From Limonium bicolor (lineage: Eukaryota > Streptophyta > Magnoliopsida > Caryophyllales > Plumbaginaceae), in the NCBI GenBank assembly GCA_023374045.1, contig CM041781.1:139616982-139680981 (forward strand): 64,000 nucleotides of DNA, read 5' to 3'. Under the pieces are notes generated by a model that worked only from the letters and a program-made list of their open reading frames with translations, did no database searches and was not told where the DNA came from. Shown piece by piece: positions 5,349-64,000 of the stretch. Within the stretch, counting starts at the first letter, position 1. Every line of letters begins with the position of its first letter. The position numbers and the translations under genes are program-made.

Positions 5349-5408
5349 GAATTTGGAAAAGGTCAATCTTGGAAATCTTTCTTTCGACGTGCGTGCGTCT
5401 TCAATGGT

Positions 5409-24593: not shown

Positions 24594-25770
24594 AAATCTA
24601 CATGAAAAACTCATGTTTTCTTCATATCCCTTCATAGCCGATTTTTGCCCTATGTAACACTCTATTTTCTCTCTCTCTTTTGAGCATAATTTCAACCTTG
24701 CAATGGTGGTGGAATCACCTTCTTGAACCGAGGGCTAAAACCCCTCTTATAAGCTTAAAAAGATAAACCCTAGAAACTTTGTTTTAAACATTTCAATGAA
24801 CTAGCATTAATTTAAGGGTTAGTATGTTAATTGCACTTGTTTATGTGTGCTTTGGGTGATGGGAATGGAGTTTGGCCGATTTGTGCAAGAAAGAGAGAAG
24901 AAGAAGAATTGGAAATGAATGAAGGAAATATAAGCTCAAGGTAGGAGCTCCTTCTTAATGCTATATTTTAAAATGCATTAGATGTAATGGGAATGGGTAA
25001 ACAAATTAAAGAAAACCAAAATATTGTATTAGTATTGTAACTGTGGAAGTTTGAGAATTTGTGAGCTAAGTATTTAGATTGTAGGCCTTAGAGCCAAATA
25101 ATGGTGTATGTGTATTAGTATTGTTGCTTGATGAAGTATTGATGTATTGGTATTGATTTGAGTGCTGGTAGGACCCTTGTATGGGTGTGGCTAGATTAGG
25201 AATGAATTTGATGAGAAAGGATATGTGTGGATAAGTAAGAAATGTAGGTGAACTATGGCAAAATTTTAGTAGGAATTGTGCATTAAGAATGACTTGGTGA
25301 ATGGGAGAACCTAGGTGTGTATTGGGTTTAGTAGAGAAGATTTAGTAACCATGGAATGGTAGTTGTGGTATGAGGATATAAGAATGTAAAATCTGTAGCA
25401 GGAGGTATTGAAATGTGTTGGAGAAACAAGGAAGAATAAGTGTGTAGGATTTAGTAAAAAGAGTATTGTACTGAGTAAGACTTTAGGTTGAGTATAATGC
25501 TAATGAGGCCATGAAAGAGCTATAGGAGTAGTGGAAGAAGAAAGGGAGAATCTGTAACATTTGTTAAGGAAGGAAAAACTGTAACAGTGGAGAAAATTTG
25601 ACAGTGGAGTGCATTATGTAACAGATTTGTATAGAGATGGATTCGGCTAGTTTTGATTGCCTAATTAGGGTCAAAACACCCTAGATAATATGTAGGAAAA
25701 TTAGGGAAGAGATTGGTAGAAGTTTGGAGTTGAAATAAGTTCAAAAACATAATTATTTTTCATTACTGCA

Positions 25771-26030
25771 ACTAGTCCGGGTTTGTAAACAAGTACAGAA
25801 ACCCGGACCAGTCAAAAAACGTAGCTGATTGCATTTCAGGAGTGGTCCAGGTTTACAAACGAGGACCTAAACCCGGACCACCCCATTTTCACACCCGAGA
25901 GGATTTACAAACGTATGGTCCGGGGTTGTAAACCATGACCTAAACCCAGACCATTCACAAATCAGACCCGAGAGTTGTACAAGCATTGTGGTCCGGGTTT
26001 GTAAACCCGGACCGCAACCTAGACCACACT
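25771..26030 (+). repeat. Four-unit hairpin array (period about 72 bp) in LTR C
   Basis: Units start at 25771, 25842, 25916 and 25988. Each has arms of the GGTCCGGGTTT / AAACCCGGACC type around a 10-15 base loop. The 3' LTR copy (39878-40135) has even better arms, e.g. ACTGGTCCGGGTTT with its exact complement. Confidence 0.8.
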
Positions 26031-27285
26031 AAAACCTTCACAGAATGTGTTTTAAAGCTAATCTAAGGTAGGATAATGAAGGGTAATGATATTATAAGGT
26101 AATTAAGACCTGGTTAAGGATGTTTAAAGGTCATTAAGGCCATAAACAAGCTTAGAGAATAATTTTAAGAAAGTAACATAAGTAAATGTATTTAAGTAAC
26201 AATGAGTAGTAAGTATAAACTGGGAAAAATTAGGTAAAGTAATGAGTAAGGTTAATTATAGATAATTAACCACCCAACTCTATGTATATGCTAGGATTCA
26301 AATAGTTAACACCGAAGAGGAGTCGGTGAGTCCAAAGTCAACGGTGAATGGTATGATTTCTTCATGCTCTGTATCCTAGCCTGGTTACCCCGATTTGTGT
26401 GCTTAATTGATCACCTAAATAAGATAAATGCATGAATCGGACTATATTGCACTTACCTGTGCTTGATTTAGGTTGTTCTTGATATATATTGTCTTGAACA
26501 CTAGTTTGTATAATTCATGAAATATATGGATGAAGATGATGTGTATTTGTACCTTGTAGTGTACTTCTGCATTGTATTGTATTTTGTATGAATGTGTACA
26601 TTGAGCTATGTATTTGTGTATATTGCTTGGATGTGATTGACTTCTACTAATTCCTAACTACCTAACTCTTAACGTAAGTATTGAGTAAATTGGAATGAGT
26701 AGAAGTCCGATATAGTTTCGGCCACGCGTGAGGATGAGGAGACACAAGAGGTTGGATCCGATTCCTGGTTCGTAAGCTAGTCCGTGGCCCAAACCCTTTA
26801 AATGGGTAGCATCCTGGATTAGTGAACCAAGTAAATCTTGGTGGTGGGACAGAGCAGTCCCCGGGCCGGAGGTCCTGACGACTTGACTAGAGTAAGTAGT
26901 AAGTAAAGTAAGTATTGTATGAGTAATGGTCTTGGGTGGTGTAAGTCATTGACCCGGAGTAAAAGAATAATCTCCACCCGATTAACCCGAGTGGACAAAT
27001 GAAGCTAACCAGTACTGGGTATTGTGTATGTATTGAGTATGGAATGTGTATGTATTGTGTATGCGTATGACAGGAAAGGTAAGTAAGTATCAATTGGCTT
27101 GTATGGTTACCTTGTATGTGTTGAAGTGTATGTATGTATTCCTTGCGTAAAGTATTGTAGTATTGTGTTTGAGAGCATGAATGCATGTATGTATGAATAA
27201 AATGAATTGCATGTATACGACCAAGTGGTCGGCGTACCCTCGCTAGTACGCGGGGTATGCGGAAGTCATATGCAGCGAAAGCTGA

Positions 27286-27315
27286 GCCCCTAGGGGCAAC
27301 GTTTTTAGTGTGCAG
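27286..27315 (+). promoter_or_regulatory. Hairpin plus predicted 3' splice site, LTR C
   Basis: GCCCCTAGGGGC is followed by AACGTTTTTAGTGTGCAG/GT with AG at 27314-27315. The 3' LTR changed GCAGGT to GCAAGT, which moves the AG by one base. Confidence 0.5.
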
Positions 27316-27669
27316 GTACCCGAAGCGAACATGACCACCGTAAGAGACCGGCGACTACGCTTGAATAGTTAGGATGAGTTGTAGTTAGTAGAAAATCGAA
27401 AAAGGCTTGGAGCCTTGTATGTAGTGTGAGGAACGAGTAGATGTAGACCCTTAATGAGTACATAAGAACTTGAAAGAAGTATTGTATTTGTATTTGGAAC
27501 CTAGTAAACTCGGTTATGTATATTATATTGTATGGTATTGTAATGGAGTAAAGTGTTGAATGGAGCATTGTAGTATTTGATTGGTAAGTGGAGTATGTAT
27601 TGTAGATGTGTAGTACTCGGGATTCCGGTCCATCAGACCGATGTTGTATGTAGTAGTGGTAGCCTTGTG

Positions 27670-27685
27670 AGTCACGTGGGTGACT
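27670..27685 (+). other. Terminal helix of LTR C
   Basis: AGTCAC-GTGG-GTGACT, about 110 bases before the LTR end. The same position holds GACCAC/GTGGTT in D and AGCCA/TGGCT in G, so several pairs change together. A second stem, CGGTC-CATCA-GACCG, lies just upstream. Confidence 0.55.
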
Positions 27686-27796
27686 AACGGCATTGTATCA
27701 CCCACCGTGTGTATGTAAGTATCCACTGCATGTATCTGGATGTGTAAGGAGATTGGACGGTAATGACGGTATTAGCGGTAGGGGTGTTACAAAAAG

Positions 27797-36839: not shown

Positions 36840-37722
36840 TGGATTCCGTAGGCATTGCATTCCTTAGTTAGAATATTGGAGATGATGGAGAGTAATGAAT
36901 GAAAGTAGTGAAGGTTGATGAAATGACCACTTAGGTATTGAATCTCGGAGTAAGTATTTGGGTAGTAGATTGAGAATGTTTGATGGACTGAATTCCATCC
37001 TTTGGAGTTGTATAAGTTTATAATTATGACTAGGAAGAGTAAAAAGATAGAAAATGGACATAATCAAATTATCTGTTTGTTTGAACCTGACGTGGGAAGT
37101 CGAACTTGATCCTGATCAGATCAAGGGAAACCAAACACAAACTGGGGCGGAAAGATAGTTCAACACTGATGCTGATCACATCAGGGTCGAATGATTCTTG
37201 AAGCTCCCCTCAAGTGGTCACAAGAATCACACATAGGATAGAAGTAATGAACATAAAATGGAATTTGGAGTTGTGTGCTATAGAGAGATTTCAAATTAGT
37301 AGTTGCAAAAGGATTTGTTTTAGTCTGAGAATGAGGATGTGTTGGAAGCGTATACCGGAGAAGATAGTAGTATATCATATTGTATTATTCCAATGGCAGC
37401 AGGACATAGAGTAGTCTTGTGTCTAGATGACCTGAGTGCTTGCGGAATTGTCATGTGTATTGCATTGCTTTGGGGATAGCTTTGCACTGTATGTATGTAT
37501 GTATGAATTTTGTAATGAGGAACCAGATGGTTGTTAGTAATGCGGATCGGAGTAATTATTGTACATTGGTATGGTATGGAAAGTAAAAACCTTGAGTATT
37601 GGATTGGAGATTTTAAGGAGAAGGAATGTATGGCTTTGGTATTAGACAAGTATAAATGAGTAAGTATAGTAATCATATAACCTTGAACAACTTTGAGGAC
37701 AAAGTTCTTAAGGGGGGTAGAT
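36840..37722 (+). other. Non-coding interior of element C, last part, with polypurine tract
   Basis: Short non-coding stretch from the ACGAT duplication to the 3' LTR. It ends with the tract AAGGGGGGTAG (37710-37720) two bases before the LTR, preceded by TTTGAGGACAAAGTTCTT, which is common before Ty3/gypsy polypurine tracts. Confidence 0.8.
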
Positions 37723-40700
37723 TGAAATACCCCAACCTTAAATATAGTGATTAAAATGATCCTAATAGGTATTTAAGGGCTTAATGGGGCCTAAGTAATA
37801 TTGGTAAGGAAAAATAAATCCAAAAGAAATAAAGAAACGCTTAAAAAGCGAAAAACGCTAAATAAGCGTAAAATAACCATTGTAGGTATGAGACCTCGGT
37901 TAGCATATTATAAGGATTCTAAAGCCTTAATAAGGCCTAAATAATATATGGGAATAACTCCCGGAGAAAACGGATCCAAATAATGAATTAAAACGCTAAT
38001 AGAGCTTTAGCGTACATTTTTCGAGAAAACCCGAAAACGTGATTTTAAGTGGTCAAACGAATCTTTATAAATTATAAATCATTAAATAACAATAATTAAG
38101 AATTAATGGAAGCTTAATAACCAACAAAATTTAAGAAACGAGAAAATTCTGGAAAACGGGCCCAGTTAGTGAATAGTACCAAAACCGGGTAAAATAACGA
38201 GCGTTTTCTGTAAAAGACGAAAAACGCTCCAGGTAGTACTACAGTAGAGGTCATGTTTTTAATCAGTCAAACAACTCCCTCACACACACATGTAACTAGC
38301 TAATTAAATAGAGAAGTGAAAGTAAAAAAGAGAAAAGTAAAAAGGGTACTTTACCCTTCTCTCACCTCTCTTTTTCTCATTTCTCTATTCTCTCACCTCC
38401 CTCCTTCCTCACCCAGCCGATTTCTCTCTCTTTCTCCCCTCTGCATCTGGCGATTTTGGAGCTCCACCAACATCCATGGCAGCCCCTCTTCTTCTTCATG
38501 CTCCATGCTCATGTGAGCTCCAAATGCAAAAATAAATATATATTCTTGCTCTCCTCATCATCCTCTACACTTCTCTCTTTTCAAAATTAAAAAATGAGGA
38601 AGTTCATCTCCATGGGTTTTCCCCATTCAAAGAGAAAATAGCATCAATGGGTAGCTTGGAGTCTCCTCTCTCCATTAAGGTAAAAAAATCTACATGAAAA
38701 ACTCATGTTTTCTTCATCTCCCTTCATAACCGATTTTTGCCCTATGTAACACTCTATTTTTCTCTCTCTCTTTTGAGCATAATTTCAACCTTGCAATGGT
38801 GGTGGAATCACTCTCTTGAACCGAAGGCTAAAACCCCTCTTAAAAGCTTAAAAAGGTAAACCCTGGAAACTTTGTTTTAGACATTTCAATGAACTAGCAT
38901 TAATTTAAGGGTTAGTATGTTAATTGCACTTGTTTATGTGTGCTTTGGGTGATGGGAGTGGAGTTTGGCAACTCCATTCCCCACATGGCCGATTTGTGTA
39001 AGAAAGAGAGAAGAAGAAGAATTGGAAATGAATGAAGGAAATATAAGCTCAAGGTAGGAGCTCCTTCTTAATGCTATATTTTAAAATGCATTAGATGTAA
39101 TGGGTATGGGTAAACAATTAAAGAAAACCAAAATATTGTATTAGTACTGTAACTGTGGAAGTTTGAGAATTTGTGAGCTAAGTATTTGGATTGTAGGCCT
39201 TAGAGCCAAATAATGGTGTATGTGTATTAGTATCGTTGCTTGATGGAGTATTGATGTATTGGTACTGATTTGAGTGCTGGTAGGACCCTTGTATGGGTGT
39301 GGCTAGATTAGGAATGAATTTGATGAGAAAGGATGTGTGGATAAGTAAGAAATGTAGGTGAACTATGGCAAAATTTTAATAGGAATTGTGCATTAAGAAT
39401 GAGTTGGTGAATGGGATAACCAAGGTGTGTATTGGGTTTAGTAGAGAAGATTTAGTAACCATGGATTGGTAGTTGTGGTATGAGGATATAAGAATGTAAA
39501 ATCAGCAGGAGGTATTGAAATGTGTTGGAGAAACAAGGAAGAATTAGTGTGTAGGATTTAGTAAAATGAGTATTGTACTGAGTATGACTTTGGGTTGAGT
39601 AGAATGCTAATGAGGCAATGAAAGAGCTATAGGAGTAGTGGAAGAAGAAAGGGAGAATCTGTAACATTTGTTGAGGAAGGAAAAACTGTAATAGTGGAGA
39701 AAATTTGACAGTGGAGTGCATTATGTAACAGATTTGTATAGAGATGGATTAGGCTAGGTTTGATTGCCTAATTAGGGTCAAAACACCCTAGAGAATATGT
39801 AGGAATATTAGGGAAGAGATTGGTAGAAATTTGGAGTTGATATAAGTTCAAAAACATAATTATTTTTCATTACTACAACTGGTCCGGGTTTGTAAACAAG
39901 TACAGAAACCCGGACCAGTAAAAAAACGTAGCAGATTGCATTTCAGAAGGAGTGGTCCGGGTTTGCAAACCAGGACCTAAACCCGGACCACCCCATTTTC
40001 ACACCCGAGAGGATTTACAAATGTATGGTCCGGGGTTGTAAACCATGACCTAAACCCGGACCATACACAAATCAGACCCGAGAGTTGTACAAGCATTGTG
40101 GTCCGGGTTTGTAAACCCAGACAGCAACCCGGACCACACTTAGACCTTCACAGAATGTGTTTTAAAGCTAATCTAAGGTAGGGTAATGAAGGGTAATGAT
40201 ATTATAAGGTAATTAAGACCTGATTAAGGATGTTTAAAGGTCGTTATGGCCATAAACAAGCTTAGAGAATAATTTTAAGAAAGTAACATAAGTAAATGTA
40301 TTTATGTAACAATGAGTAGTAAGTATAAACTGGGAAACATTAGGTAAAGTAATGAGTAAGGTTAATTATAGATAATTAACCACCCAACTCTATGTATATG
40401 CTAGGATTCAAATAGTTGAACACAGAAGAGGAGTTGGTGAGTCCAAAGTCAACGGTTAAAGGTATGATTTCTTCATTCTCTGTATCCTAACCTGGTTACC
40501 CCTATTTGTGTGCTTAATTATCACCTAAATAAGATAAATGCATGAATCGGACTATATTGCACTTACCTATGCTTGCTTTAGGTTGTTCTTGATATATATT
40601 GTCTTAAACACAAGTTTGTATAATTCATGAAATATATGGATGAAGATAATGTGTATTTGTGCCTTGTAGTGTACTTGTGCATTGTATTGTATTTTGTATG

Positions 40701-41911
40701 AATCTGTACATGAGCTATGTATTTGTGTATGTGGCTTGGATGTGATTGACTTCTACTAATTCCTAACTACCTTACTCCTAACGTAAGTATTGAGTAAATT
40801 GGAATGAGTAGAAGTCCGATATAGTTTCGGCCACGCGTGAGGATGAGGAGACACAAGAGGTTGGATCCGATTCCTGGTTCGTAAGCTTGTCCACGGCCCA
40901 AACCCCTTAAATGGGTAGCATCCTGGATTAGGGGACCAATTAAATCCCGGTGGTGGGACAGAGTAGTCCCCGGGCCGGAGGTCCCGACGACTTGACTTGA
41001 GTAAGTAGTAAGTAAAGTAAGTATTGTATGCGTAATGGTCTTGGCTGGTGTAAGTCATTGACCCCGAGTAAAAGAATAATCTCCACCCGATTAACCCGGG
41101 TGGACAAATGAAGCTAACCAATACTGGGTATTGTGTATGTATTGAGTATGGAATGTGTATGTATTAAGTATGTATTGTGTATACGTAGGACAAGAAAGGT
41201 AAGTAAGTATCAATTGGCTTGTATGGTTACCTTGTTTGTGTTGAAGTGTATGTATGCATTCCTTGCGTATAGTATTGTAGTATTGTGTATGAGAGCATAT
41301 ATGCATGTATGTATGAATAAAATGAATTGCATGTATATGACCAAGTGGTCGGCGTACCCTCGCTAGTACGCGGGGTATACGGAAGTCATACGCAGCGAAA
41401 GCTGAGCCCCTAGGGGCAACGTTTTTAGTGTGCAAGTACCCGAAGCGGACATGACCACCGTAAGAGACCGGCGACTACGCTCGGATAGTTAGGATGAGTT
41501 GTAGTTAGTAGAAAATTGAAAAAGGCTTGGAGCCTTGTATGTAGTGTGAGGAACGGGTAGATGTAGACCCTTAATGAGTACATAAGAACTTGAAAGAAGT
41601 ATTGTATTTGTATTTGGAACCTAGTAAACTCGGTTATGTATATTGTATTGTACGATATTGTAATGGAGTAAAGTGTTGAATGGAGCATTGTAGTATTTGA
41701 TTGGTAAGTGGAGTATGTGTTGTAGATGTGTAGTACTCAGGATTCCGGTCCATCAGACCGATGTTGTATGTAGTAGTGGTAGCCTTGTTAGTCACGTGGG
41801 TGACTAACGGCATTGTATCACCCACCGTGTGTATGTAAGTATCCGCTGCGTGTATCTGGATGTGTAAGGAGATTGGACGGTAATGACGGTTTTAGCGGTA
41901 GGGGTGTTACA
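37723..41911 (+). mobile_element. 3' LTR of element C
   Basis: Same order of features as 23630-27791, with scattered substitutions and small indels. It has an extra 23-bp or so at about 38970 (ACTCCATTCCCCACATGGCC) missing from the 5' copy. Ends at 41911 next to the CAACT duplication. Confidence 0.9.
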
Positions 41912-51740: not shown

Positions 51741-54053
51741 TGTAACACCCCTCTCAATAATGATGTAATAATCACTCACGAGAACAGAAAATAAATGCGT
51801 CTCACAGCGGAAGAAATGACAGTAATCAAGCTCACATGGGTGTTACTTGCCATCCCTCACCCATACGAGTGATGTAGCAATACAACAACTTAACGAAATG
51901 AAAACATAATAATACAACCCGCGGTGACAACGAGATACCGCCTACACGTCCATCTAAGTCCCAAAAGCACATCTATAGTGAGCGTCTAGACATACTCCAA
52001 AGCTTACAACCGATTCCAGTAAAACAACTTAATACATATCAAGGTGCGTACGGAAATTCCAAAATCCAACATCCTAACTACCCGGCCCCGCACTCCGGCT
52101 TTGTCCGTGATCATCCACCTGCATAAAGCCATAAAGGCTCAGCGATAAATGCTGAGTATGTCGAATCTGGACCCTAATGGTCAATTAGGTCTTATTAACC
52201 GTCTTTTTATTAGGTTCGTTACATGCATCACCGGTTTACAGAGTATAGCGAAAAACTGTAAAACGTAATTAAACATGTAATAATCATCATAGGTGTACAC
52301 AGAACAACAGTACATCGTACAGTACAATAACATCAATAAATCACATGTTGTTTTTAGTTTCACATCATTCTGTATCACAACACTCGGCCCCCCGGGCCCT
52401 CACATATCGCTTGTTTTGGTTAGCATTGTCGGGAGTCAGTTAGGACAACCCGAGATATATATTCACTTGGACAGTAGTCCCACATACACACAAGGTGCTC
52501 ACTGCCCTGATCATCCGAAGACTCCGGGACTAATTCACTTTGCCTTTGTAAAGGCGTCCATTTAGGTGGCCAAGGGCCTGGTGCCAACGGTAGCACACTC
52601 CGCCTGACGATCTATCTAGGCTCATTCAGGATTAACTATGGAAAACCCGACACAGGTTAACCCAAGAGATCTCTACGCGCGACCAGCAGCCAATGACTGT
52701 CTGGATTAAGGTTCACATCACTTCCATTCACACTCCACTGTTAACTTCGTTAGTTAGTAATTCATTTACAGTTTTAAATATGGAGAACATCACTTATTTG
52801 TTGGCTGCCCTATGGGTCTTACGCATGCCTAGAATGATTCTAGGAAGTATTTATGTTTGAGTCGAAGCTCTAGGGACCGACAATGTCGTGTCTCGATTCC
52901 TAAGTGTTTTACTTAGGTTATAACTACATACTTGTAATACTTAGTGTATTAGGTCAGGCAACGGTAATCACGGTCACACAACTCGTATATGTAGTTTATA
53001 TAAGCCGATCTATAGTCGACATAGTATTAGTGCGTGCATAAATAAGTAATGCAGTAAACACATATCCATCTCACATAATCACACATGTTATCAAACAAAT
53101 CCGAGCCCGAGGAATTCCTCAGGAGAACTTAGATCAAACTCCTTTACATACCCTACACCGTGTCTAGGATCGAGCAATGTAGACCGCTTAGCCTAACGAG
53201 CGCGCACGTTTGAAGGACGATCTAAAATACAAGGAACGCTAAGTGTCAGTCTACATGACAGTAGGTTTCGGTATTTCCGAATAACGTCGGTAATCCTAGT
53301 AGTACATCCCCGGACTCCAACTACTACTTGTTAAGGTGTTGCTATCTTAAAAAACTCCTTACTCATAGTATGCATTAATATACGGTTTATTGTGGAATCG
53401 GTTTCGTAAGACGTCATAGTTAACATTTCCAAAGTAAGAATTTTATTTTTCTAATCCGTAGAAGTTTATAATGTTATACTTATACAGGTTTGTTCGCTCT
53501 TGTATATTTAATTTAACTGTCACTTCGTTTGCACCGACATAGTGCTATTCTTTAATATACCTTATATTACACAACCTCTCAATTATGTAACAAGTTATAT
53601 CCATTTAAGACCTTAAAACTTATAGCTTATAATTATACTAAGGAGTTAACATTTAGTATTCACTATTATATGACTTGTAACCCATAGTTTGTGTATGTTA
53701 CTTGCGCTGGTAACTTATATGCATAAATGCACATTGGTTCTTAATGGGGTATGAAACCTTATATTATTTACATGTTATTGTTATTATTTCTATTATTATT
53801 ATTACTATTATTTTTTTTCCAGATTTATTTTTCACACAAAAATCATGTCTTAACCATAGTATTATATGTCCTTTTACACTATGGCTTTCATTCTTATTTT
53901 TAGCATATATTTATATACATATGCTTGCACTTAGCATGTTAGTTTTGAAAACTATTTTTTTTATCACATAGTATTGTTTTGTGTTACAATTACATTATGA
54001 TATCATGTAGCATGATATTTTATATGTCGTTGAACTTTATAACATATAGTTTT
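51741..54053 (-). mobile_element. LTR E fragment (A family), cut by element D
   Basis: Begins TGTAACACCCC at 51741 after CTACG and aligns with A's 5' LTR from 16150. It breaks at 54053, where D begins; the sequence CATATAGTTTT just before the break is present uninterrupted in A near 18027. The hairpin CTCAGC/GCTGAG (52138-52156) with minus-strand TTTATGCAG/GT (AG complement 52119-52120) is conserved, as is the block 52381-52716. Confidence 0.75.
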
Positions 54054-55003
54054 TGAAATACCCCAAACCTAGGTATGTTGTTTAAACATTAAAATAAGGT
54101 GTATTAAGACTAAAAAGAGTCTTAGAAACATTAGTAAATAATTTAAACCATAGGAAACACAAGTAAATACCTTAAGGTCAATAAAGGCCAAAATGTGCTC
54201 TAAGCTTGGGATAAGCTTGGTTAAGACCTAATGAGCTTACCAAGACCTCATTTATATATTAATGAACATATTAAACCAATTACCAAGGAAAACCAAGCTT
54301 GAAAACAAGTTAAGACACAAAATGTGCTTTAACGAGTCTTAAAGCACATTTTTGAAAAATTGTCTTGTAAATGAGTTTTGAATGGCTAGATGTCCATAAT
54401 TACTCTTTAATTAACATGTGTACTACTTAGTATCACATTAGGAAGTCTAAATCAATGGGAAATCAAAAATTTCACAACTATGTGCCTTGTTTTAGTTAAT
54501 AGTAACCAAATTAACCAAGTTTATAACATATGTCAATATAAGTGTGACAATTGGTCAACAAAGACTAAAATACCCCTTTTGTATATTATGGGGGCCGGTT
54601 TTTATAAGGGTGAGTCATCTCCCCCTTTTTAGTTATCAAGTAAGTAAAATTAATAAAGCAAATCACTATTTACTTTTGCTTTAAATATCAAAAACTAGTT
54701 ACTTATCTTCATTCTCTTCTTTCCCTCTTCATTTCCCACGGCTCCAACCTCTCTTCTATCTCCTTCTTGCTCTCCATTCACGTTTTTGCAATAGTACCAA
54801 CACCACCAACACCAACTTCCATTGTCATTATCTCCTAGCTCACTTTGCCAAATCAAAAACTAACACCACCATACTTCTAGTCTCATCAAGCTCTCCATTC
54901 CTATCTTCTCAAAATTCCAAGAGCTCCATTTCGGTGCCAAGAGGAATCTCCATGGGAAGAGCTTGAGCTCATCTTTTCACATATTGTTGTTCTCCTTTGC
55001 TTC

Positions 55004-55012
55004 TAGGTAAGG
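55004..55012 (+). promoter_or_regulatory. Predicted 5' splice site in LTR D leader
   Basis: TAG/GTAAGG at 55007, close to the plant consensus, with a second site AAG/GTAAAA at 55173. Pairing with the acceptor at 57591 would remove about 2.5 kb including the hairpin array. Confidence 0.4.
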
Positions 55013-56198
55013 AAACTCAAAGAAAAATAACATTTCCTTCATGTTTGTTTGTGGTCCAAAAAACACCATTAATGGTGCCCCTTACCTTGCTTTGTTTTAG
55101 CTTCATTTGAATCTTCCAAGGGCTTGGTGGAGTCCCTCTTGCTACATATCCAAACTCTTTTTCATATCCAAGGTAAAACAATCATCTAAATGTTCTAAGG
55201 CAATCTATGTATTTTGGGTTCACAATGAGATGAAGCATAAAGCTTGTATACTCATTTCATTATTTGTATATTGTTTAGAAGTTGACAAGAAACCAAACAT
55301 CCTTACCGATTTTTAAAACAAGGAAACAAGAAAGAAGTTGTGAGGAAATGAGGTAAATATGCTAGCCTAATGTAGCTTACAATGTCTTAGGAGAAATGAG
55401 CTTATATTGCTTATTAAAACTACTTAAGGAGCTAATGGTAAATGACTTAGAAAAATTCTCTCAAGGGCTTAGTAAAAGGCATATGTATTGTTGGGTGTAT
55501 TTATAGGTCAAAGGCAAATATATTGTGGGAAATTAAGTGTTTATGATTTATGCATCTTAAGGGCCTAAGAGCCATGCTATTTAAGGGCCTAAGTGCCAAG
55601 CAATTTAAATTATGCACTATATTGTGATGTAGTGTTAAATGGGTGAAGTTTTGTGTACAAGAATGTTCTTGATGGATTTTAGTGTTCTTGATTGTTTAAT
55701 GGTGAAAACAATGTGTTTTGGCTTAGTAATGTTCTAGGAGAGTTCACGTCAAAATTTAGGTAATGTACAAGAAGTTCTAAGTGTTTAAACAATATTTGGT
55801 GAACTAGGAAGTGTTAGAAATGTTTAGGTATTTTACTAAAGGAGAAGTAATGTCTTAGGTGTTCTAGGAAACAAAAAGGGACATAGACATCAACTAGAAG
55901 TTTTGGTTAGGAAGAAAAGATGCTTGGGAGATGATGTTATAGTCGTGAGAAAACATTTGGGAATAGTGGAAGTTATAGGTATGAAACACCACATAGAAAC
56001 TTAGTGAAAAACATTACAAGTGTAAACCTTTTCATGAGAATTTGTGTAATGCTTGAGGAGGATTTTGATGAATGATTTAAGGGGTTTAATGGAGGTCCTA
56101 AGGTGTGTTTGAAGTGCCCAATTAAGGTTAGAACATACTAGGCTATATGGGGTGAAGTTTGGGGTTAAATGGGCAATTATAAACAAGGGCCTCGAGCA

Positions 56199-56584
56199 GA
56201 CCGACCTTGGGGACCGGACCTGCAAGGTCGGTCGAGCCCAGTTTACCCTGCGAGAAATGGTTTCTGGAATGGACCGACCTTGGGGACCGGACTTGCAAGG
56301 TCGGTCGAGCATGGATTTTTAGTACGGTTTGAGTCTCTGGAATGGACCGACCCTAGGACCGGACTTACAAGTTCGGTCATGCCTAAATTTTTGTACGTAA
56401 GTAAGTCTCGGGAATCGACCGATCTTGCGACCGGACTTGCCAAGATCGGTCGGGCCTGAATTTTCAAAGGAAAGAAACTCTCGGGAATAGACCGAACTTG
56501 TGACCGAACTTGCAAGGTCGGTCAGAGTAGAATTTTTTGACGGTAATATGTCCTGGAATGGACCGACCTTGTGTAAGGTCGGTC
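56199..56584 (+). repeat. Six-unit hairpin array (period about 73 bp) in LTR D
   Basis: Units start at 56199, 56272, 56345, 56417, 56490 and 56561. Arms are GACCGACCTTG/CAAGGTCGGTC in units 1 and 2; unit 4 has GACCGATCTTG/CAAGATCGGTC, a compensated change; unit 6 pairs GACCGACCTT/AAGGTCGGTC; units 3 and 5 have mismatches. The frames over this region (e.g. 56001-56312 minus) only follow the repeat. Confidence 0.85.
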
Positions 56585-57557
56585 GGTAAGTTTGGTCGGA
56601 CTAAAACTTGTAAAAAAAACAACAAACAAAGAGTGGCTTAAGTAGTTAACCCTAGGGGGTATAAAGTAGGTAAACAAGGATAAGTTTAGGCATTAAAACA
56701 TGTCATATAACCATGTAAAATACTTAGTAAAATTTGAAATTAAGTAAATTAGGTAACAAACATTATTAATCGTGTATAGGAGTGGCCTACGGAGGAAAAC
56801 AATCGAAGCAAGGACCAAGGTATGGTTTTCTTGTAGTCTGTTGCCTACCGGTTTACACCGGCTTGTGTGTTGTTTGTTTTTCTATGTGTTTATGACCTTG
56901 TAAGATTTAAGTCATGTAACGAGTTTGCAGTTGTTAAATATTATTGTATTGTACGTATGACTCTCTCTTCCCTAGTGTGTGTCTAACAAGACTTAACCGA
57001 TTGTTTGTGATTTGTTTATTGAGTTCAATGTTGAACTTCTAACAAGTGCTAACGGGGGAGGTGAGGAGTCCGGTCTGTTCCGACCATGCGTGTGAGTATG
57101 GGAGTCGATGTCATAACCGGTTCGATTCTCTCTGTATGTTATGGTTGTTTTCCAATTTGGTTTCCAATCTTCCCTTTAGCTTAACAAAGGCTATTTTATT
57201 GACTCACGTCGGGCCACAGGGGCATACTATGTTTTGTTCGGTGTGCTTTGGTCACTATATCCGAGGCACCTTGTGTTAAGTTATCCGTTCAATCTAACAG
57301 AACGGTAACGAGTTATGTAACGAGCTTAGCATGAGTTTGGCAACATTCTCTAGGCTCTCAATGGGAACTAATTATGTTGGTTCATTTCCTAAAAGGATTG
57401 TTCTTGTGTGTTATGTGTGATGTTGTATGCAATACTCTTGCGATGATATATATATGTTGTATGTTTAAAATGAATGCCATGTCATCATGACAATTAGTTG
57501 TGCATATCCCGGTAGCCGATGGGCTGCGCGTTAACCATACCAGCCAAGGGTTGCTGA

Positions 57558-57591
57558 CCCCCTCGGGGGCTCCATATTTCTTTTACTGCAG
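57558..57591 (+). promoter_or_regulatory. Hairpin plus predicted 3' splice site, LTR D
   Basis: CCCCC-TC-GGGGG (57558-57569) is followed by a T-rich tract and TTTTACTGCAG/GATG, AG at 57590-57591. The best acceptor consensus of the set. Confidence 0.5.
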
Positions 57592-57860
57592 GATGAGGAT
57601 TGAGGAAGCAGAATGACTATAGATCCTCGGTGGCAGGAATACTTTTGGTTGTTTTCAGAGTTGAGCCCGGGATGCGCCTGTGCTTCCGTGGCGATATATA
57701 TTTTGGTACCATTGTATTACAGTGATAGTTGGTGGTGTACAGCTTGTAGTTATGGATGTAGTTACAAACTCGGTATTATGTTAATGTATTAAAGGTTATT
57801 AGTTCTATGCTCGGGAGTGTGATCATCAGACCGGTACGCTTGTATTTATTCTGCCTTGTT

Positions 57861-57876
57861 GACCACGTGGGTGGTT
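57861..57876 (+). other. Terminal helix of LTR D
   Basis: GACCAC-GTGG-GTGGTT, homologous in position to AGTCAC-GTGG-GTGACT of LTR C, with paired substitutions. Confidence 0.5.
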
Positions 57877-57976
57877 AACGGCGTTGTAGCACCGAATCTT
57901 TTAGTTATTATTTAGTTGTATAATTCCGCTACGATTTCAAGTGTTGTTAAGTGCGTAGTAGGGGTGTTACAAAAAG

Positions 57977-57983
57977 TGGTATC
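57977..57983 (+). other. Truncated primer-binding site of element D
   Basis: Only TGGTATC remains. Compared with element C (27797 on), about 11 bases between two TATC copies are missing, leaving TTCGCTCTGATG directly after. This looks like a slippage deletion that removed the rest of the tRNA match. Confidence 0.75.
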
Positions 57984-58179
57984 TTCGCTCTGATGGCTAG
58001 AATACCGAGGTTAGGAATATACCAAGTTAGGAAATCTAACTATAGTTACCTAAGAGAACAGTTGTGGAGAGGTTAACCACTAACTAAGTGTGGAAATACC
58101 TTATTGTCGGGAAGAGGTTACAACCGTTTGACCGATAAGTGTGCAAGCACAATGCTAATAAATGTTCATGTGAATTCAG

Positions 58180-58863
58180 ATGTCAGGTAGACCACGAGGT
58201 CGAGGCCGCGGGCGCGGCATTGGTGATGCTGGGAACCATGGGGAGAACCCTACAGCACAGGTCATGGCCGACGCTGCGGCCGCCGTAGCCCAGATGGTCC
58301 CACAGTTAGTAGCTGCGATGCAGCAGCAGCAGCAAGGCGGTGTGGGTCAACAAGGGCCACAACCGCAACCACAGCCGCGCGAGACCAACTGGGTCAAGGC
58401 GTTGGCGGACTTGAGACCCCCGTCATTCAGTGGGGAGACCGACCCTAGTAAGCTGGAGGCGTACATCTCCGAGATGGAGACCGCTTTCGAAACCTTGGAT
58501 GTTCCTGTTGGTGCCAAGGTTCGACTAGCCGCTTACTACCTGAAGGGATCGGCTCAAAGTTGGTGGAAGCTGATTAGGTTAGGCAGAGTTGGTGATCCTA
58601 CCTTCCAGTGGAGGGAGTACACGGCCCTGTTGCGAGCCAAGTACTACCCGATTCATGTGCAGGAGGCCAAGCGCCTAGAGCTTGATAGTTTGAGACAAGG
58701 GGATAAGATGACGGTTGATGAGTACTACACCGCTTTCATCGGACTTATCAATCTGCTGCCGGATCTGGGTTACTCGGACCAGATATTAGTGAACCGTTTC
58801 TACAACGGATTGAGCTACCGCCTACGCTACGGTATAGGGCCAAGCGGGTATACTACTTTGCAG
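58180..58863 (+). CDS. gag: gag, exon 1 (capsid part)
   Basis: Start ATG 58180 is the first in-frame Met after the leader. The product opens with an RG-rich stretch (residues about 3-15) and a Gln-rich stretch (48-67), then the conserved retrotransposon gag domain (about 70-225), recognisable from the WVKALADLRPPSF region, the AYYLKG..QSWW motif and the FYNGL region near the end. This structural protein would form the virus-like particle. Read without splicing, the frame stops at 58885-58887 after 235 codons, giving a capsid-only product. With the predicted intron removed it continues into exon 2 after Gln 228 in the same phase. No stop or frameshift is seen in the exon. Confidence 0.85.
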
Positions 58864-58958
58864 GTAATGAACTACAGTAAGAAGTGAATAAGTGTGTACA
58901 GTGCGTTAATATGAATGTGAGTCTGTTTAGCGGGGCATAACTAACACCCTAAATATAG
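58864..58958 (+). other. Predicted spliceosomal intron 1 in gag (95 bp)
   Basis: Donor CAG/GTAATG, acceptor ATATAG/G, branch-like ATAACTAAC about 18 bases upstream of the acceptor. It contains in-frame stops and shifts frame; removal (phase 0) restores a continuous gag-like reading. Composition is AT-rich relative to the flanking exons, as in plant introns. Confidence 0.75.
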
Positions 58959-59217
58959 GAGTGCTATCATGCCGCTGCAATTGTTGAGATCACCGTCCGT
59001 TTGAGGGACGAGGAGAGTGCGCTCAAGCGCAAGGCCATGAGTGAGGGCCAAGGTACGCAAGGGCAAGGGGGAGGAAAGAAGAAGAAGTCATACCCCCAGT
59101 CCCAGAAAGGACAGCAACAGGGTGGCAAGGGCCAGGCCCAGACCACCACTGCTGAGGAGCCTCTGCAGCTCACCTACGCATATGCAGCCAAGCCCTTACG
59201 CTCTTACCCACCCAAGG
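58959..59217 (+). CDS. gag: gag, exon 2 (linker)
   Basis: Eighty-six codons plus one base. It starts with the alpha-helical end of the gag domain (VEITVRLRDEE region), then a Gly/Lys/Gln-rich basic linker with a KKKK run, as usual between capsid and nucleocapsid. It lies in a different frame from exon 1 only because the intron length is not a multiple of three. Confidence 0.75.
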
Positions 59218-59300
59218 GTAATTAATAAAACTCGAATACCGAATTCTAGAGTGTGTTGTTATTTTGTGAAGTATGTACTGAGTGTGTGATGTGTTAGCAG
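59218..59300 (+). other. Predicted spliceosomal intron 2 in gag (83 bp)
   Basis: Donor AAGG/GTAATT, acceptor TTAGCAG/C, T-rich between. Phase 1; removal joins exon 2 to the zinc-knuckle exon in frame. Includes a stop (59223-59225) that would end the unspliced reading. Confidence 0.72.
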
Positions 59301-59642
59301 CTAGCACGGGCTCTGGACCGGAGCGCCACTACTATTGTAAGTGGTGTAACGGAGACCACCCCGGCAAGGACTGCAAGGGCAATGATGTGCAGTGTCGATA
59401 CTGCAAGAAGATGGGGCACCGCGACTACGAGTGCTGGCAGAACCCGAATGGCAGAAACTACAGGCCTAAGGGGCAGTGGAAGGGTAAGGCCACCGCGACT
59501 ACCGATGGCCCGAAGACGGCAAATCAGCCACCCCTAGATCAGAGGTACACAGATTCCCAAAAGGGGAAGGGGTCGGGATCCGGCAAGGCCGCCCTGAATG
59601 TGGTGGACCGGTCTGAGGCGCCAGGGCCCTCTTCTAGACCAG
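59301..59642 (+). CDS. gag: gag, exon 3 (nucleocapsid, two zinc knuckles)
   Basis: Two zinc knuckles lie close together: CX2CX3HX4C (CKWCNGDHPGKDC, one residue short before His) and a canonical CX2CX4HX4C (CRYCKKMGHRDYEC). A basic, Gly/Pro/Lys-rich tail follows. Nucleocapsid would bind and package the element RNA. Exon 3 ends at donor CAG/GTACCG in phase 1. If not spliced there, the frame stops three codons later (TAA, 59651-59653). Gag exons 1 to 3 together would give about 428 residues, a usual size for chromovirus Gag. Confidence 0.8.
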
Positions 59643-59785
59643 GTACCGCCTAAATTGTTGAATGAAATAAGTGATTGCATACCGCATTTCATGCATATGT
59701 GCTAGTGAGTTTAAGTAAACAACCATGTAAGTAAACAGTCAAAGTATAATGTGAGAACACCTAATTAAGTAATTTGAAAACTTAG
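59643..59785 (+). other. Predicted intron 3 (143 bp), AlkB-joining form
   Basis: Donor CAG/GTACCG; acceptor AACTTAG/G with branch-like CCTAAT 20-25 bases upstream. Phase 1 at both ends, so nucleocapsid reads straight into the AlkB frame. The same donor also fits an acceptor at 60708 (TTAG/G), giving a 1066-bp intron 59643-60708 that skips AlkB and joins protease in frame. Confidence 0.6.
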
Positions 59786-60525
59786 GAACCTTCAATATTT
59801 GCTATCCCATCCCACCCACACCAAACCCTGAAGAAACCACCATCAGCATCACCGACTTTCCAATGGAGCGATGTCAGGTTATCCAACCAGGTATGATACT
59901 CTTAAATGGATACCTGACACCGGAAGCACAAATCCACATCATCAGACGATGCAATGAACTTGGAGCAATACCTGGAGGTTTCTACACACCCGAATACCCG
60001 AGTGGATCGATTATGAAATTGAAGATGATGTGCATGGGTAAGGACTGGAATCCTTACACCAAGACATATCAAGAAGTGCGAGCTGAAGATGGAGCAACAA
60101 TACTAAGTATACCTGAGGAGTTCCTTGCGGTCGTTAACCACACCGTGGGAATTGCTCAGCAAGTTGAACCAGATTCAATACCAAGTGTTAAAGCGGATTT
60201 ATGTATTGCGAACTTCTACCAGAAAGGTGGACGGTTAGGGTTACACCAAGATAAGGACGAGTCACCCGAGTCTCTAAGTAAGGGAGTACCCGTGGTGTCT
60301 TGGTCCATTGGTGACACCGTAGTGTTTGTGTACGGCGAGCAGAAGCGTGCTGATCTCGCAAAGAAGTTAGTACTGAAAACAGGAGATGTGTTAATCATGG
60401 GTGGGCAGTCAAGGATGCTATATCATGGCATCAAGAAGATCAAACTGAATACCGCACCATCGGCAGTGATCAATGCCACACACATGAAACCTGGACGCTT
60501 GAATTTGACCTTCAGACAGTTTTAA
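59786..60525 (+). CDS. AlkB-type 2-oxoglutarate/Fe(II) dioxygenase carried by the retrotransposon
   Basis: The uninterrupted frame from Met 59863 gives 220 residues, the size of bacterial AlkB. It ends at TAA 60523-60525. Iron ligands H128, D130 (LHQDKDES) and H188 (YHGI) are present, as are N117 and Y119 of the 2-oxoglutarate site and the family signature RxNxTxR (R212-R218) at the C-terminus. AlkB enzymes remove methyl groups from nucleic-acid bases. By its overall text it resembles plant ALKBH1-like proteins rather than viral or bacterial ones (judged from memory, not searched). Upstream of the Met the frame stays open to the acceptor at 59785, adding about 25 Pro/Thr-rich residues and joining Gag. 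The ORF has no intron, suggesting capture from an mRNA. It has no lesion, while pol downstream has several. Confidence 0.88.
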
Positions 60526-60708
60526 AGCCTTGTATAATCATGTAATGTGTTAAACCAGTGTATGTTAAGGATGTTGTATGTGTTAGTTAAATCAACAGTG
60601 TAAACCAATGAATGTTGTAAGAAGAGTGTGTTAATGAATAAAGTGGAGTTGTTTGAAGCATGTCAACCATGTTGTTACCGAATACTTATTAGTTTGCCAA
60701 TGAATTAG
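60526..60708 (+). other. AlkB 3' untranslated-like region and acceptor for pol
   Basis: AT/TG-rich, with TGTATG words typical of plant upstream polyadenylation elements and AATAAA at 60637-60642. It ends with TGAATTAG/GTTG, AG at 60707-60708, the best in-frame acceptor for protease. Downstream AGs (e.g. 60754) also give an open frame and cannot be excluded. Confidence 0.5.
60637..60642 (+). terminator. Candidate polyadenylation signal after AlkB
   Basis: AATAAA, 112 bases after the AlkB stop, with TG-rich DNA before it and GTTGTTT after it. Use of it would end a Gag-AlkB transcript before pol. Confidence 0.45.
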
Positions 60709-61481
60709 GTTGTGCACTCGGAACGGGAGGTATACTGAGTGTCTGCAATGAAGCAGAAGCCGGAAAGAGCGGCACAATCCTCACCGGTACCTTTTCAGTC
60801 AATGGCGTGGACGCTTCGATCTTGTTCGACTCCGGAGCCTCTCACACATTTATTTCGCTATCTTTTGCGAAGAGGCTGGGGTTAGACGGTGATGAGATGC
60901 CAGATTTTCAAGTCACTCTCCCGTCTAAAGAGCGGGTCAGGTGTACCCGCTACCACCGAGATGTTGTTGTACGAATCAGAGATGAAGAGTTTCCGATCGA
61001 CCTGATAGAGTTCGAGGGACTTGGTTTTGATGTGATTGTCGGGATGAACTGGTTGGAGCGGTACAAGGGCAGAATCTTGTGTGCCGAGCATCGTCTGCTT
61101 CTTCGGAGTCCGTCTGGGGTTACTATATCTTACCGCCAGAGGCCCAGGGAGCCTTCGGCTCAGATCATCACCGCCATGACTATGTATCGTTTGTTACGAC
61201 AAGGGAATGATGTATACCTCTGCTATGTCCAGGACATAGAGAGAGACCCAGAGTTTAGCCCAGATGTGCCGGTAGTGTCGGAGTTTCCTGATGTATTTCC
61301 TAAGGAACTGTCGGGCATGCCGCCAGCACGGGAAGTTGAGTTTGAAATTGATTTGGTTCCGGGCACCGGACCAATTGCGAAGGCGCCCTATCGTATGGCT
61401 CCAGCAGAGATGACAGAGCTCAAGGAGCAGCTGAGAGACCTACTCAACAAGGGATTTATCCGCCCTAGCGTTTCACCATGA
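60709..61481 (+). pseudogene. pol: pol: aspartic protease and linker, ended by a TGA
   Basis: The retroviral-type protease is marked by LFDSGASHTFIS with the catalytic DSG at 60828-60836 and a second conserved stretch, DVIVGMNWL. It would cut Gag-Pol into mature proteins. The linker to RT carries the usual acidic PDVFPKELSGMPP region. TGA at 61479-61481 replaces the Trp codon (TGG) that normally stands before the first RT motif, a G-to-A change. Confidence 0.85.
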
Positions 61482-62624
61482 GGAGTGCCGGTCCTCTTCG
61501 TGAAGAAGAAGGATAGCCTCCGCCTGTGTATTGACTATCGAGAGCTGAATGCAGTTACGGTGAAGAACCGTTACCCTTTACCACGCATTGATGATTTATT
61601 TGATCAGTTGAAAGGAGCATCAGTATTCTCCAAGATACATCTACGATCCGGATACCATCAGATTGCCATCCGTGACAGTGACATTGAGAAGATAGCATTC
61701 AGAACCATATATGGACATTATGAGTTTACGGTTATGCCGTTTGGTTTATCCAATGCACCAGCTAAGTTCATGGACTTAATGAACCGCTTGTTCCAAGATC
61801 AGTTGGACAAGTCAATGGTAGTCTTCATCGACGATATTCTTGTGTACTCAAAATCGAGGGGTGAGCACGAAAGCCACCTGAGAAGTGTGTTGCAAACATT
61901 GAGAAAGAATCAGTTGTATGCGAAATTTTCAAAGTGTGAGTTTTGGTTGAACCAAGTATCTTTTCTTGGCCATGTGATTTCTGAGGCCGGGATCGCTGTT
62001 GATCCGGCAAAGATTGATGCAGTGCGCACCTGGCCTAGGCCGAAGACAGTTACCGACATCCGGAGCTTCCTCGGTCTGGTAGGATATTATAGGAGGTTTG
62101 TGAAGGACTTCTCCAGTGTCTCGAAGCCGATGACTTCCTTGATGAAGAAGGATGCTCCATTCGAGTGGGCAGATGACTACAAGAGTTCTTTTCAGAGTCT
62201 CAAGGATGCTCTGACATCTGCACTAGTCATGACTTTACCAGACGGTCCAGATGGTTTTGAGGTCTATTGCGACGCATCAGGCAGAGGTATGGGTTGTGTG
62301 TTGATGCAACACGGGAAGGTCGTAGCATACGCCTCCTGACAGCTGAAGAAGCATGAAGAGAACTACCCTACCCACGACTTAGAATTGGGTGCCATTGTCT
62401 TCGCACTGAAGATATGGCGACATCATTTGTATGGGGTAAGTGTGACAATTTATTCTGACCACAAGAGTTTAAAGTACTTGTTCACTCAGAAGGAGTTGAA
62501 CATGAGACAAAGAAGGTGGGTCGAGTTTCTAAACGACTACGACATCAAACTGCAGTATAAAGAGGGTAAGGCAAATGTGGTAGCTGATGCACTGAGTCGC
62601 CGAGCACACTCTCTCCATTCGCTA
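61482..62624 (+). pseudogene. pol: pol: reverse transcriptase and RNase H, inactivated
   Basis: RT spans about 61485-62110 and RNase H about 62230-62620. The RT FIDD box (61824-61835) is intact, but the motif A catalytic Asp is His (CAT, 61638-61640), and one Gly codon is missing after VKKKD. RNase H keeps the [13 protein letters not shown] and YSDHKSL Asp/Glu sites and ends with ADALSRR. TGA at 62337-62339 replaces an Arg codon (CGA to TGA, a CpG change) in the middle of RNase H. These lesions make the copy unable to reverse transcribe itself. Confidence 0.88.
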
Positions 62625-63930
62625 GTCTCTCATTCTAGCTTGGTTGAAGAGGTGCGGAGTGCTCAGATGACGGATCAGTACATGTTGGAGATTAGACAGA
62701 AGCTTATTGATGGCACATTCGAGGGTCAGAAGTACGACTTCCGGCTCCACGATGATGACCTGATTAGGCTTAATGGCCGACTGTGTATTCCGAGGAGTAG
62801 CACTGAGCTGAAGGAGCGCATACTGAGTGAATCCCACTGTTCTACGACTTCGATTCACCCCGGAGCTTCAAAAATGTATAAGGGTATGAAACATTATTTT
62901 TGGTGGACTGGAATGAAAAAGGATGTGAACGATTATGTGTTGAGGTGTCTCACTTGTCAGAAAGTCAAGTTTGAGCACCGACGGCCTGGTGGTATGGTAC
63001 AGCCAATGCCAGTGCCTGAGTGGAAGTTCCATGACATTTCTATGGACTTCGTAGTAGGGCTTCCGCCTACAAGGGGAGGTCTGAATATGATTTGGGTTGT
63101 TGTTGACCGACCGACCAAGGTGGCTCGATTCATACCGATGAAGGACACCTGGAAAGTGGCAAAACTTGTAGAGCTCTTTGATAGAGATATTGTTCGGCAC
63201 CATGGGGTACCGAAGACTATCGTGTCTGATAGGGATACCAGATTCCTCTCGAGGTACTGGAAATCCACACAGGAAGCGCTTGGTACACGCGCTAAAGCTA
63301 AGTACAGTGTTCCACCTATACACAGATGGTCAGAGTGAGCGCACCATCCAGACACTTGAGGATATGTTACGTGCATGTGCACTTGATTTTCAGACCAGCT
63401 GGATTGACAAGTTACATCTGATCGAGTTTAGCTACAACAACAGTTACCATGCTTCGATCAAGATGTCTCCCTTCCAGGCATTATACGGTAGACCATGCCG
63501 CACGCCATTATGCTGGGATGAGTCGAGTGAGACGGTCATTATAGGACCAGAGTATCTGGAACAAGTTCAAGCAGAAGTACGACAGATCCGGGCTAACATG
63601 AAGGCAGCTCAGGATAGGCAGAAATCATACGCCGATGTGCGCAGACGTGACCTGGAGTTCGCCGTGGGCGATCAGGTATTTCGTAGAGTATCCCCCATGA
63701 AGGGAGTGTTTTGTTTTGGCCAGAAAGGTAAGTTGAGCCTGAAATATGTGGGGCCTTATGTTGTGACGGAGCGGATCGGCCCGGTAACTTACAGACTTGA
63801 TTTACCCGCCGAGCTGGGCAAGGTACATGATGTATTTCATGTGTCCCAGTTGAAGAAATATATGTCTCATCCGTCTCATGTACTTCAGCCTGAAAGGCTA
63901 ACCTTAGAGCCGACCATGCGATCAGTGGAG
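62625..63930 (+). pseudogene. pol: pol: integrase, frameshifted
   Basis: The zinc-binding HHCC domain (about 62820-62960; SIHPG, CLTCQ) is followed by the catalytic core with SMDFV and VSDRDTRF Asp residues. An extra base near 63286-63296 shifts frame +1 before the third acidic residue; the frame then continues from about 63293 to the window end with TDGQSER (catalytic Glu) and the GPY/F-like C-terminal part (KYVGPYVV). A stop is reached at 63336-63338 in the original frame. Integrase would insert the cDNA. Confidence 0.85.
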
Positions 63931-64000
63931 ACTCCGGTACGGATTCTGGATACTAAGACTCAAGACACTCGCCATAAGTCTGTGAGACTGGTGAAGGTTC
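63931..64000 (+). pseudogene. pol: pol: start of chromodomain
   Basis: After the QLKKY linker and a Pro-rich step the frame reads ETPVRILDTK...VKV, the usual opening of the Tekay/Del chromodomain, which steers integration to marked chromatin. Cut by the window end. Confidence 0.65.

Follow-up and report, generated by a model that had tools for sequence, protein, structure and literature searches.

An AlkB domain, predicted to act as a demethylase, is encoded inside a Ty3-type LTR retrotransposon of Limonium bicolor, where it forms an alternative terminal exon behind a gag gene divided by GT-AG introns. The element that houses it, here called element D, is 14.25 kb long and lies at 54054-68305 on the + strand; positions are those of the window, the 64,000-nucleotide stretch that was analysed, past whose end the element continues. 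We consider it probable that element D is a Ty3-type element, likely a chromovirus, whose RNA is spliced from the nucleocapsid either to AlkB or to the protease, and that a predicted Gag-AlkB protein enters the particle and demethylates the element's own RNA or single-stranded cDNA. The features of the element are listed below.

54054..57971, + strand: 5' LTR, TG...CA, 3.9 kb, from the LTR pair and the target site duplication (TSD)
57977..57997, + strand: primer-binding-site (PBS) region directly after the 5' LTR, degenerate in the window copy
58180..58863, + strand: gag exon 1 (capsid), PF03732 with E 6.6e-18, end from the splice model
58864..58958, + strand: intron 1, 95 nt, CAG/GTAATG...ATATAG/GAG, GC 0.37, GT and AG in 20/20 loci
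58959..59217, + strand: gag exon 2, joins in frame, tblastn match in 20/20 loci
59218..59300, + strand: intron 2, 83 nt, precisely absent in locus L016, exon 2/exon 3 junctions found in the genome
59301..59642, + strand: gag exon 3 (nucleocapsid, zinc knuckles), Cys-rich knuckles read directly
59643..59785, + strand: intron 3 (143 nt) as removed in the Gag-AlkB mode, donor GT and acceptor AG/GAA in 20/20 loci
59786..60525, + strand: alternative terminal exon that encodes AlkB and carries its own stop codon, PF13532, AF2 model and fold matches
60526..60708, + strand: spacer ending in the protease acceptor GAATTAG/GT, same phase as the AlkB acceptor
60709..64000, running beyond the window, + strand: pol exon with protease, RT, RNase H and integrase (PF08284, PF00078, PF17917, PF17921)
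about 64391-68305, beyond the window end, + strand: 3' LTR, pairs with the 5' LTR

Structure and lineage of element D

The genome searched comprises 2.92 Gb in 2,686 contigs, and a first set of 20 ten-kb loci was compared, made up of the window's own locus and 19 taken from the list of AlkB matches. Element D is flanked by a GTTTT target duplication, read from the sequence at 54049-54053 and again after 68305, and its two LTRs are 97.9% identical over 2,633 bases compared and 96.3% over the last 487. A second element copy (L017) is flanked by ACAGT. The sequence TGGTATCAGAGC, presumably a match to initiator Met-tRNA, stands right after the 5' LTR end in 18 of the 20 loci; the window copy has TGGTATCTTCGC in its place, and L011 was the locus among the 20 scanned in which no PBS was found after the LTR end. 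A polypurine tract precedes the 3' LTR in 19/20 loci. Capsid, zinc knuckle, protease, RT, RNase H and integrase were detected on the same strand on both sides of AlkB by Pfam, with one RNase H region in element D in the scan of the window. The LTR pair, TSD, PBS, polypurine tract and the order gag-PR-RT-RNaseH-IN are those of a Ty3-type LTR retrotransposon.

The pol exon extends past the window to a chromodomain-like end. A Chromo match (PF00385) follows integrase in all three of the other copies tested, with E-values of 2.9e-5 to 6.6e-4 and scores of 20.0-24.4, which lie below the curated cut-off of 25.1, and element D is likely a chromovirus. The pol frame of the window copy itself is broken by TGA codons at 61479 and 62337 and by a frame change near 63300.

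The 5' LTR contains a 72-73 bp tandem repeat (56199-56571), and the 3' LTR has one too. A further LTR-like repeat pair lies in the window at 23630-27791 and 37722-41911, 95% identical, with ends that resemble those of element D (TGAAATAC...TGTTACA) and CAACT on both sides. This pair may be a relative of element D that is non-autonomous or gutted, since no other part of the window matches the proteins of element D. At 5408-5737 lies a 47/95-bp tandem repeat (TAACAGCAGGGGGCTGTATATCCCTCG...) that is unconnected to the element. The window gave no match in an Rfam scan at the gathering threshold and none in a tRNA scan.

Distribution of the AlkB-bearing element

The genome search with PF13532 yielded 38,325 loose candidates; 150 of these were scored and all 150 lie above the cut-off, with open frames of 211-263 amino acids, one of them with an inner stop. 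Gag exon 1, gag exon 2, nucleocapsid, AlkB, protease, RT and RNase H/integrase follow in one order and on one strand in 20/20 loci of the first set; the last piece of integrase was unmatched in a single locus (L026). Two subfamilies were distinguished. Subfamily A comprises 16 of the 20 loci, including the window copy, with AlkB 89-95% identical to that of the window copy, and subfamily B the other four, with AlkB 67-68% identical to it. The location of AlkB between nucleocapsid and protease is common to both.

A sample independent of AlkB was drawn from the donor site of intron 3 in the nucleocapsid, which occurs at 6,903 places in the genome with at most two mismatches (reversed-pattern control, 0). 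Every fifth of 100 places listed among these was taken, all of them on C1 and all exact matches, and AlkB lies downstream in 20/20 of the copies so chosen. The preliminary description of this DNA, made from the window's letters, had suggested a search for further copies with AlkB between zinc knuckle and protease; these were found in 19/19 and 20/20 cases. As findings that would undo its own reading it had named AlkB in this one copy only with a dN/dS near 1, or a separate host retrogene inserted by chance. We give the reading as a host retrogene that landed by chance in one element copy next to no credence and reject it. What speaks for it is that the window holds a single copy, and otherwise nothing. 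AlkB sits in the same place in the window copy, in the 19 other loci and in the 20 donor-picked copies, both subfamilies carry it, and ten element AlkBs form one group in a tree (93/82).

Some copies are regularly spaced: four lie about 10.1 kb apart at C1:497439466-497470353 and five at C1:18345764-18386473, a step that equals the internal part plus one LTR. These runs look like tandem arrays of elements that share LTRs, so the donor-site places are not all separate insertions.

The AlkB exon and its relatives

An open frame of 250 residues occupies 59773-60525, with its stop codon at 60523-60525, and in the window copy PF13532 was matched across the whole profile (E 2.3e-44), which bears out the initial claim of a complete AlkB frame on the sense strand between nucleocapsid and protease. 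The start assigned to it there, 59786, is exactly the exon start predicted by the splice model. The active site was likewise described correctly as intact, with nine residues present in the window copy: H158, D160 and H218, which we take to be the iron ligands, and N147, Y149, R242, N244, T246 and R248, which are presumably the 2-oxoglutarate and RxNxTxR residues. Eight of the nine are identical in all 22 copies of a set that combines the window copy with 21 copies picked by AlkB score; the ninth, N244 of RxNxTxR, is replaced by S in 3/22.

The preliminary description had drawn an analogy with ALKBH9B and m6A. Our searches lead to a nearer one. The AF2 model of the exon product (pLDDT 94.9) has as its top fold matches the rice enzyme OsALKBH1 (5xoi and 5xeg, TM 0.92 and 0.90 by target length), and ALKBH5 ranks far lower. 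OsALKBH1 is also the best solved relative by sequence (E 3.2e-65), and plant ALKBH1-type proteins are the best named relatives, at 39-50% identity. Judged by both kinds of search, the enzyme of element D appears closest to ALKBH1 and not to ALKBH5/9. OsALKBH1 and the element enzyme have the same active-site residues; plant ALKBH1 differs in being a cellular gene with a long N-terminal region and in an insert, missing from the element enzyme, that follows the helix near residue 130.

Six public proteins (P0001-P0004, P0064 and P0083) are 56-70% identical to the element AlkB. In the tree, the group of ten element AlkBs falls within a clade (100/99) that includes these six, and this clade stands apart from angiosperm ALKBH1 (98/99) and from the fern and liverwort proteins; the bootstrap of this tree had not settled, P0064 and P0083 fill less than half of its columns, and its rows hold no ALKBH5/9. 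The six proteins may come from elements of this kind in other species. P0002 continues upstream of the 'FDIC' stretch through a segment unlike host ALKBH1, and the element frame does likewise. Among the 87 matches of a region search, with candidates of 371-1179 aa, none has gag, protease or RT in its precomputed Pfam annotation. Viral contigs gave no match in one scan with the AlkB protein and three weak relatives (30-37%) in a scan with an alignment.

The part that resembles host ALKBH1 begins with the 'FDIC' stretch, right where the acceptor of the AlkB exon lies. This suggests capture of a terminal exon of the host, complete with its acceptor.

Gag introns and the choice between two acceptors

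In the splice model, joining at GT-AG sites restores a single frame through capsid, linker and zinc knuckle. The introns have 32-37% GC and the gag exons 56-60%. Introns 1 and 3 retain their donor and acceptor dinucleotides in 20/20 loci, and intron 2 is present in 19/20, L016 lacking it exactly. In the four copies of subfamily B the aligned acceptor column of intron 2 is not AG, so subfamily B may use a different acceptor there. Between subfamilies A and B the introns have 0.33-0.40 identity and the adjoining exons 0.47-0.61. The nucleocapsid exon reached E 0.0043 with PF13917, under the cut-off of that profile. Relatives of the gag region (58180-59642) are nearly absent from the protein collection, with two matches of 25-26% identity among the 7,995 scored candidates, those with most words in common.

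From the end of the nucleocapsid exon at 59642, two acceptors of the same phase are available, one at 59785/59786 leading to AlkB and the other at 60708/60709 leading to the protease; the donor at 59643 thus also serves the Gag-Pol mode, with an intron of 59643-60708 in the splice model. The earlier statement that AlkB lies in gag-pol therefore holds for its position within the element and fails for a continuous frame, since AlkB has its own stop at 60523-60525 and is intronic in the Gag-Pol mode. A continuous gag-AlkB-pol polyprotein was considered as well and rejected, on the grounds of this stop and of the separate acceptor that the protease exon possesses.

Spliced products found as genomic copies

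If the RNA of the element is spliced and occasionally reverse transcribed, exact exon-exon junctions are expected in the genome. The exon 2/exon 3 junction was found at 131 places (a bare count, not a share of the intron-2 donors), the junction of nucleocapsid with protease (NC/PR), in which AlkB is skipped, at 14 places (5 exact), and that of nucleocapsid with AlkB (NC/AlkB) at 13 places (9 exact); the reversed-pattern control gave 0 for each. Set beside the 6,903 donor sites, the 13 NC/AlkB and 14 NC/PR places show spliced copies to be rare. Several junction places are close neighbours (C2:386603598 and C2:386613667, 10 kb apart; C2:353436700 and C2:353445880, 9 kb apart), and some of these may descend from one event.

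Three loci were read for each of the two alternative junctions. For NC/PR, L057 lacks intron 1, intron 2 and the whole of intron 3 including AlkB, and is thus a retrocopy of Gag-Pol RNA from which all introns had been spliced; L058 and L059 retain introns 1 and 2, by sites or by spacing, and have lost the AlkB-bearing intron. For NC/AlkB, L062 reads from nucleocapsid into AlkB in one frame, followed by the usual spacer and the protease. L061, 10 kb from L062, shares this junction and has an AlkB frame that is broken, and in L060 the junction is present, intron 2 is absent and no AlkB match was found past the junction. Exact intron-less copies of this kind place element D with spliced LTR retrotransposons such as BARE1 and Ogre, and the exact junctions indicate that the RNA of the element has been spliced towards Gag-AlkB or Gag-Pol.

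Deletion between short repeats could in principle produce the same junctions, since the donor (CCAGG) and the acceptors (TAGG and AAGG) share the three bases AGG and slippage could hit the intron 3 points. We regard this as very improbable. The bounds of intron 2 share one base only, yet its exact junction occurs at 131 places; L057 lost three introns together at GT-AG bounds; and both the GC difference between introns and gag exons and the lower identity of introns between subfamilies, given above, argue for splicing.

Predicted fusion to Gag

In all four copies of subfamily B the AlkB frame has its first Met within the domain, at residue 82-94, and translation of the whole domain therefore requires entry from Gag/nucleocapsid. 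A Met ahead of the domain, M31, is found in 16/22 copies, and the residue is N or L in 6/22. In subfamily A, M31 would permit separate translation of AlkB, from its own start codon or by reinitiation, with splicing from the nucleocapsid as an incidental feature. Such a free enzyme would also fit the AlkB stop codon and would resemble the orchid case, in which AlkB is described as belonging to an independent ORF2 (PMC9289625). We think it distinctly unlikely, given that no Met precedes the domain in 4/4 copies of subfamily B or stands at residue 31 in 6/22 copies, that the acceptor AG/GAA is kept in 20/20 loci in frame with the nucleocapsid, and that the exact NC/AlkB junction occurs at 13 places. 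Fusion to Gag is the reading that we follow below.

Selection and decay of the AlkB frame

In the set of 22 copies, dN/dS of AlkB is 0.145 within subfamily A and 0.112 between A and B, the latter a rough value because dS between the subfamilies is saturated (1.94). The corresponding values are 0.136 and 0.079 for protease, 0.066 and 0.037 for RT, and 0.21 and 0.20 for nucleocapsid. Among the 20 donor-picked copies AlkB has a dN/dS of 0.269. A ratio near 1, which the preliminary description would have counted against itself, was thus found neither among copies picked by AlkB (0.112-0.145) nor among those picked by donor site.

The donor-picked copies are largely decayed. Two of the 20 AlkB frames (L047 and L051) are intact after correction for an alignment artefact, a shift by one base at the stop codon (0/20 without this correction), and 18 are broken; catalytic residues are altered in L041, L046 and L050, and L045 has one that cannot be read. 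Changes were counted over 21 rows, these 20 copies and the window copy, for which the neutral expectation is 2.2-3.3 nonsynonymous to 1 synonymous. Of the changes confined to a single copy, 56 are nonsynonymous, 38 are synonymous and 2 create a stop, whereas those common to at least two copies comprise 37 nonsynonymous, 53 synonymous and 1 to stop. The two classes differ (Fisher p 0.018), with a deficit of amino-acid changes among the shared ones. This bias towards synonymous changes indicates that selection maintained AlkB in those lineages that spread, and that the frame decays once a copy has inserted, the behaviour expected of a working retroelement gene.

An alternative, to which we give little weight, is that AlkB is a passenger on its way to being lost, once helpful and now neutral. 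The 18/20 broken frames of the donor-picked sample would agree with this, but the copies of any retroelement decay, and in the AlkB-picked set intact frames are found in 4/21 copies for gag exon 1, in 8/22 for PR and in 8/22 for RT; the synonymous bias of changes common to several copies speaks against it as well. In that set 18/22 AlkB frames are intact. We dropped this count as a sign of selection, because every copy except that of the window had entered the set through its AlkB score, and the frames were judged against the window copy.

Proposed mechanism

The unspliced RNA would serve as the genome, because it alone retains the introns. Spliced RNA would encode either Gag-AlkB, with AlkB as the terminal exon, or Gag-Pol, with AlkB skipped, and a transcript that keeps intron 3 would end soon after the nucleocapsid and yield plain Gag. 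Gag-AlkB would then be built into the particle and strip methyl groups from the packaged RNA or the single-stranded cDNA. Both RNAs are presumably still made today, the Gag-AlkB protein would exist and be packaged, and the predicted enzyme is probably active and of benefit to the element. By kinship with AlkB and ALKBH1, the likeliest substrates would be 6mA/m6A, 1mA or 3mC in single strands. Rice ALKBH1 removes 6mA from single-stranded or unpaired DNA, as reported in PMC10469495, which would fit first-strand cDNA as a substrate; m6A or m1A in RNA is as good a candidate.

The predicted Gag-AlkB might instead act on host DNA or RNA, for example on 6mA in chromatin or R-loops or on defence transcripts, and not on the nucleic acids of the element. 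Loss of rice ALKBH1 is reported to raise 6mA in R-loops and to alter gene expression (PMC10469495), and the authors of the orchid study likewise allow for action on cellular RNA (PMC9289625). We judge a host target unlikely; fusion to the nucleocapsid predicts closeness to the packaged RNA and cDNA.

A more specific version of the preferred reading has, in our estimate, about an even chance of being right. It holds that the demethylase is the C-terminal domain of a structural protein, that a splice switch decides between Gag-AlkB and Gag-Pol, that each particle carries its own eraser acting on packaged RNA and single-stranded cDNA, and that the capture was independent of the one in orchids, involved another AlkB family and has persisted through the split of at least two subfamilies.

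Comparison with known systems

The preliminary description knew of no account of such an arrangement. AlkB in a retrotransposon had in fact been published in 2022: Gypsy_Pa_2799 of Phalaenopsis is described as a Ty3/Gypsy element with a captured and amplified AlkB-family gene, whose protein bound RNA and removed m6A from single-stranded RNA in vitro (PMC9289625). In the screen of 121 plant genomes presented in the same report, the AlkB domain was reported in two Phalaenopsis species only (PMC9289625). Among the literature matches listed, AlkB in an LTR element appears only in that paper and in a review (PMC12786077). An AlkB exon spliced to Gag is described in none of the matches listed, which are published papers found under other wording.

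As far as the orchid report describes it, Gypsy_Pa_2799 shares with element D the Ty3/Gypsy type, the AlkB domain and the conserved iron and 2-oxoglutarate residues. It is described there as an Ogre/Tat element of 25 kb with a single gag-pol ORF, whereas element D is likely a chromovirus, 14 kb long, with introns in gag. A dual RNase H is a feature of the Ogre/Tat lineage, and the Pfam scan lists one RNase H region in element D. In the orchid element AlkB is reported to form the C-terminal domain of ORF2, a separate frame of 565 aa, and to group with ALKBH5/9/10; that of element D is of ALKBH1 type, by the searches above, and is an alternative exon spliced to the nucleocapsid, neither a separate ORF2 nor ALKBH5/9-like. 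Considering the other enzyme clade, the other place of the gene, the other route of expression and, most likely, the other element lineage, the AlkB of element D is best read as a capture independent of that in Phalaenopsis. New here are a gag gene with GT-AG introns and AlkB as an alternative terminal exon; an AlkB-bearing Ty3 element as such was already known.

Splicing is documented in other plant LTR elements. BARE1 is reported to have one optional intron of 104 nt, and when this is spliced out a stop follows directly behind Gag (PMC3735527), and EVADE and Ogre are further spliced elements according to PMC12786077. In these, as described, and in element D, for which the evidence comes from genomic retrocopies, RNA splicing bears on the choice between Gag alone and Gag-Pol; BARE1 does so with its one optional intron, while element D has two gag introns and a choice of enzyme exon or pol. 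AlkB domains are also known from plant RNA viruses of the Alphaflexi-, Betaflexi- and Closteroviridae (cited in PMC9289625). These viruses and element D are alike as mobile parasites that encode their own AlkB demethylase, predicted as such in element D, and differ in that AlkB is part of a virus protein in the former and an exon of an LTR element in the latter.

Implications

Element D would be a case in which introns are kept while splicing picks between a fusion of structural protein and enzyme and Gag-Pol. The Gag-AlkB design predicts that the enzyme is found in particles, with packaged RNA or first-strand DNA as its substrate, and these predictions offer a way to decide if transposition is limited by methylation of the element's RNA or DNA. 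A second capture of AlkB by a Ty3 element, involving a different enzyme family and probably a different element lineage, would suggest, if true, that nucleic-acid methylation is a recurrent barrier to plant retrotransposons and not an oddity of orchids.
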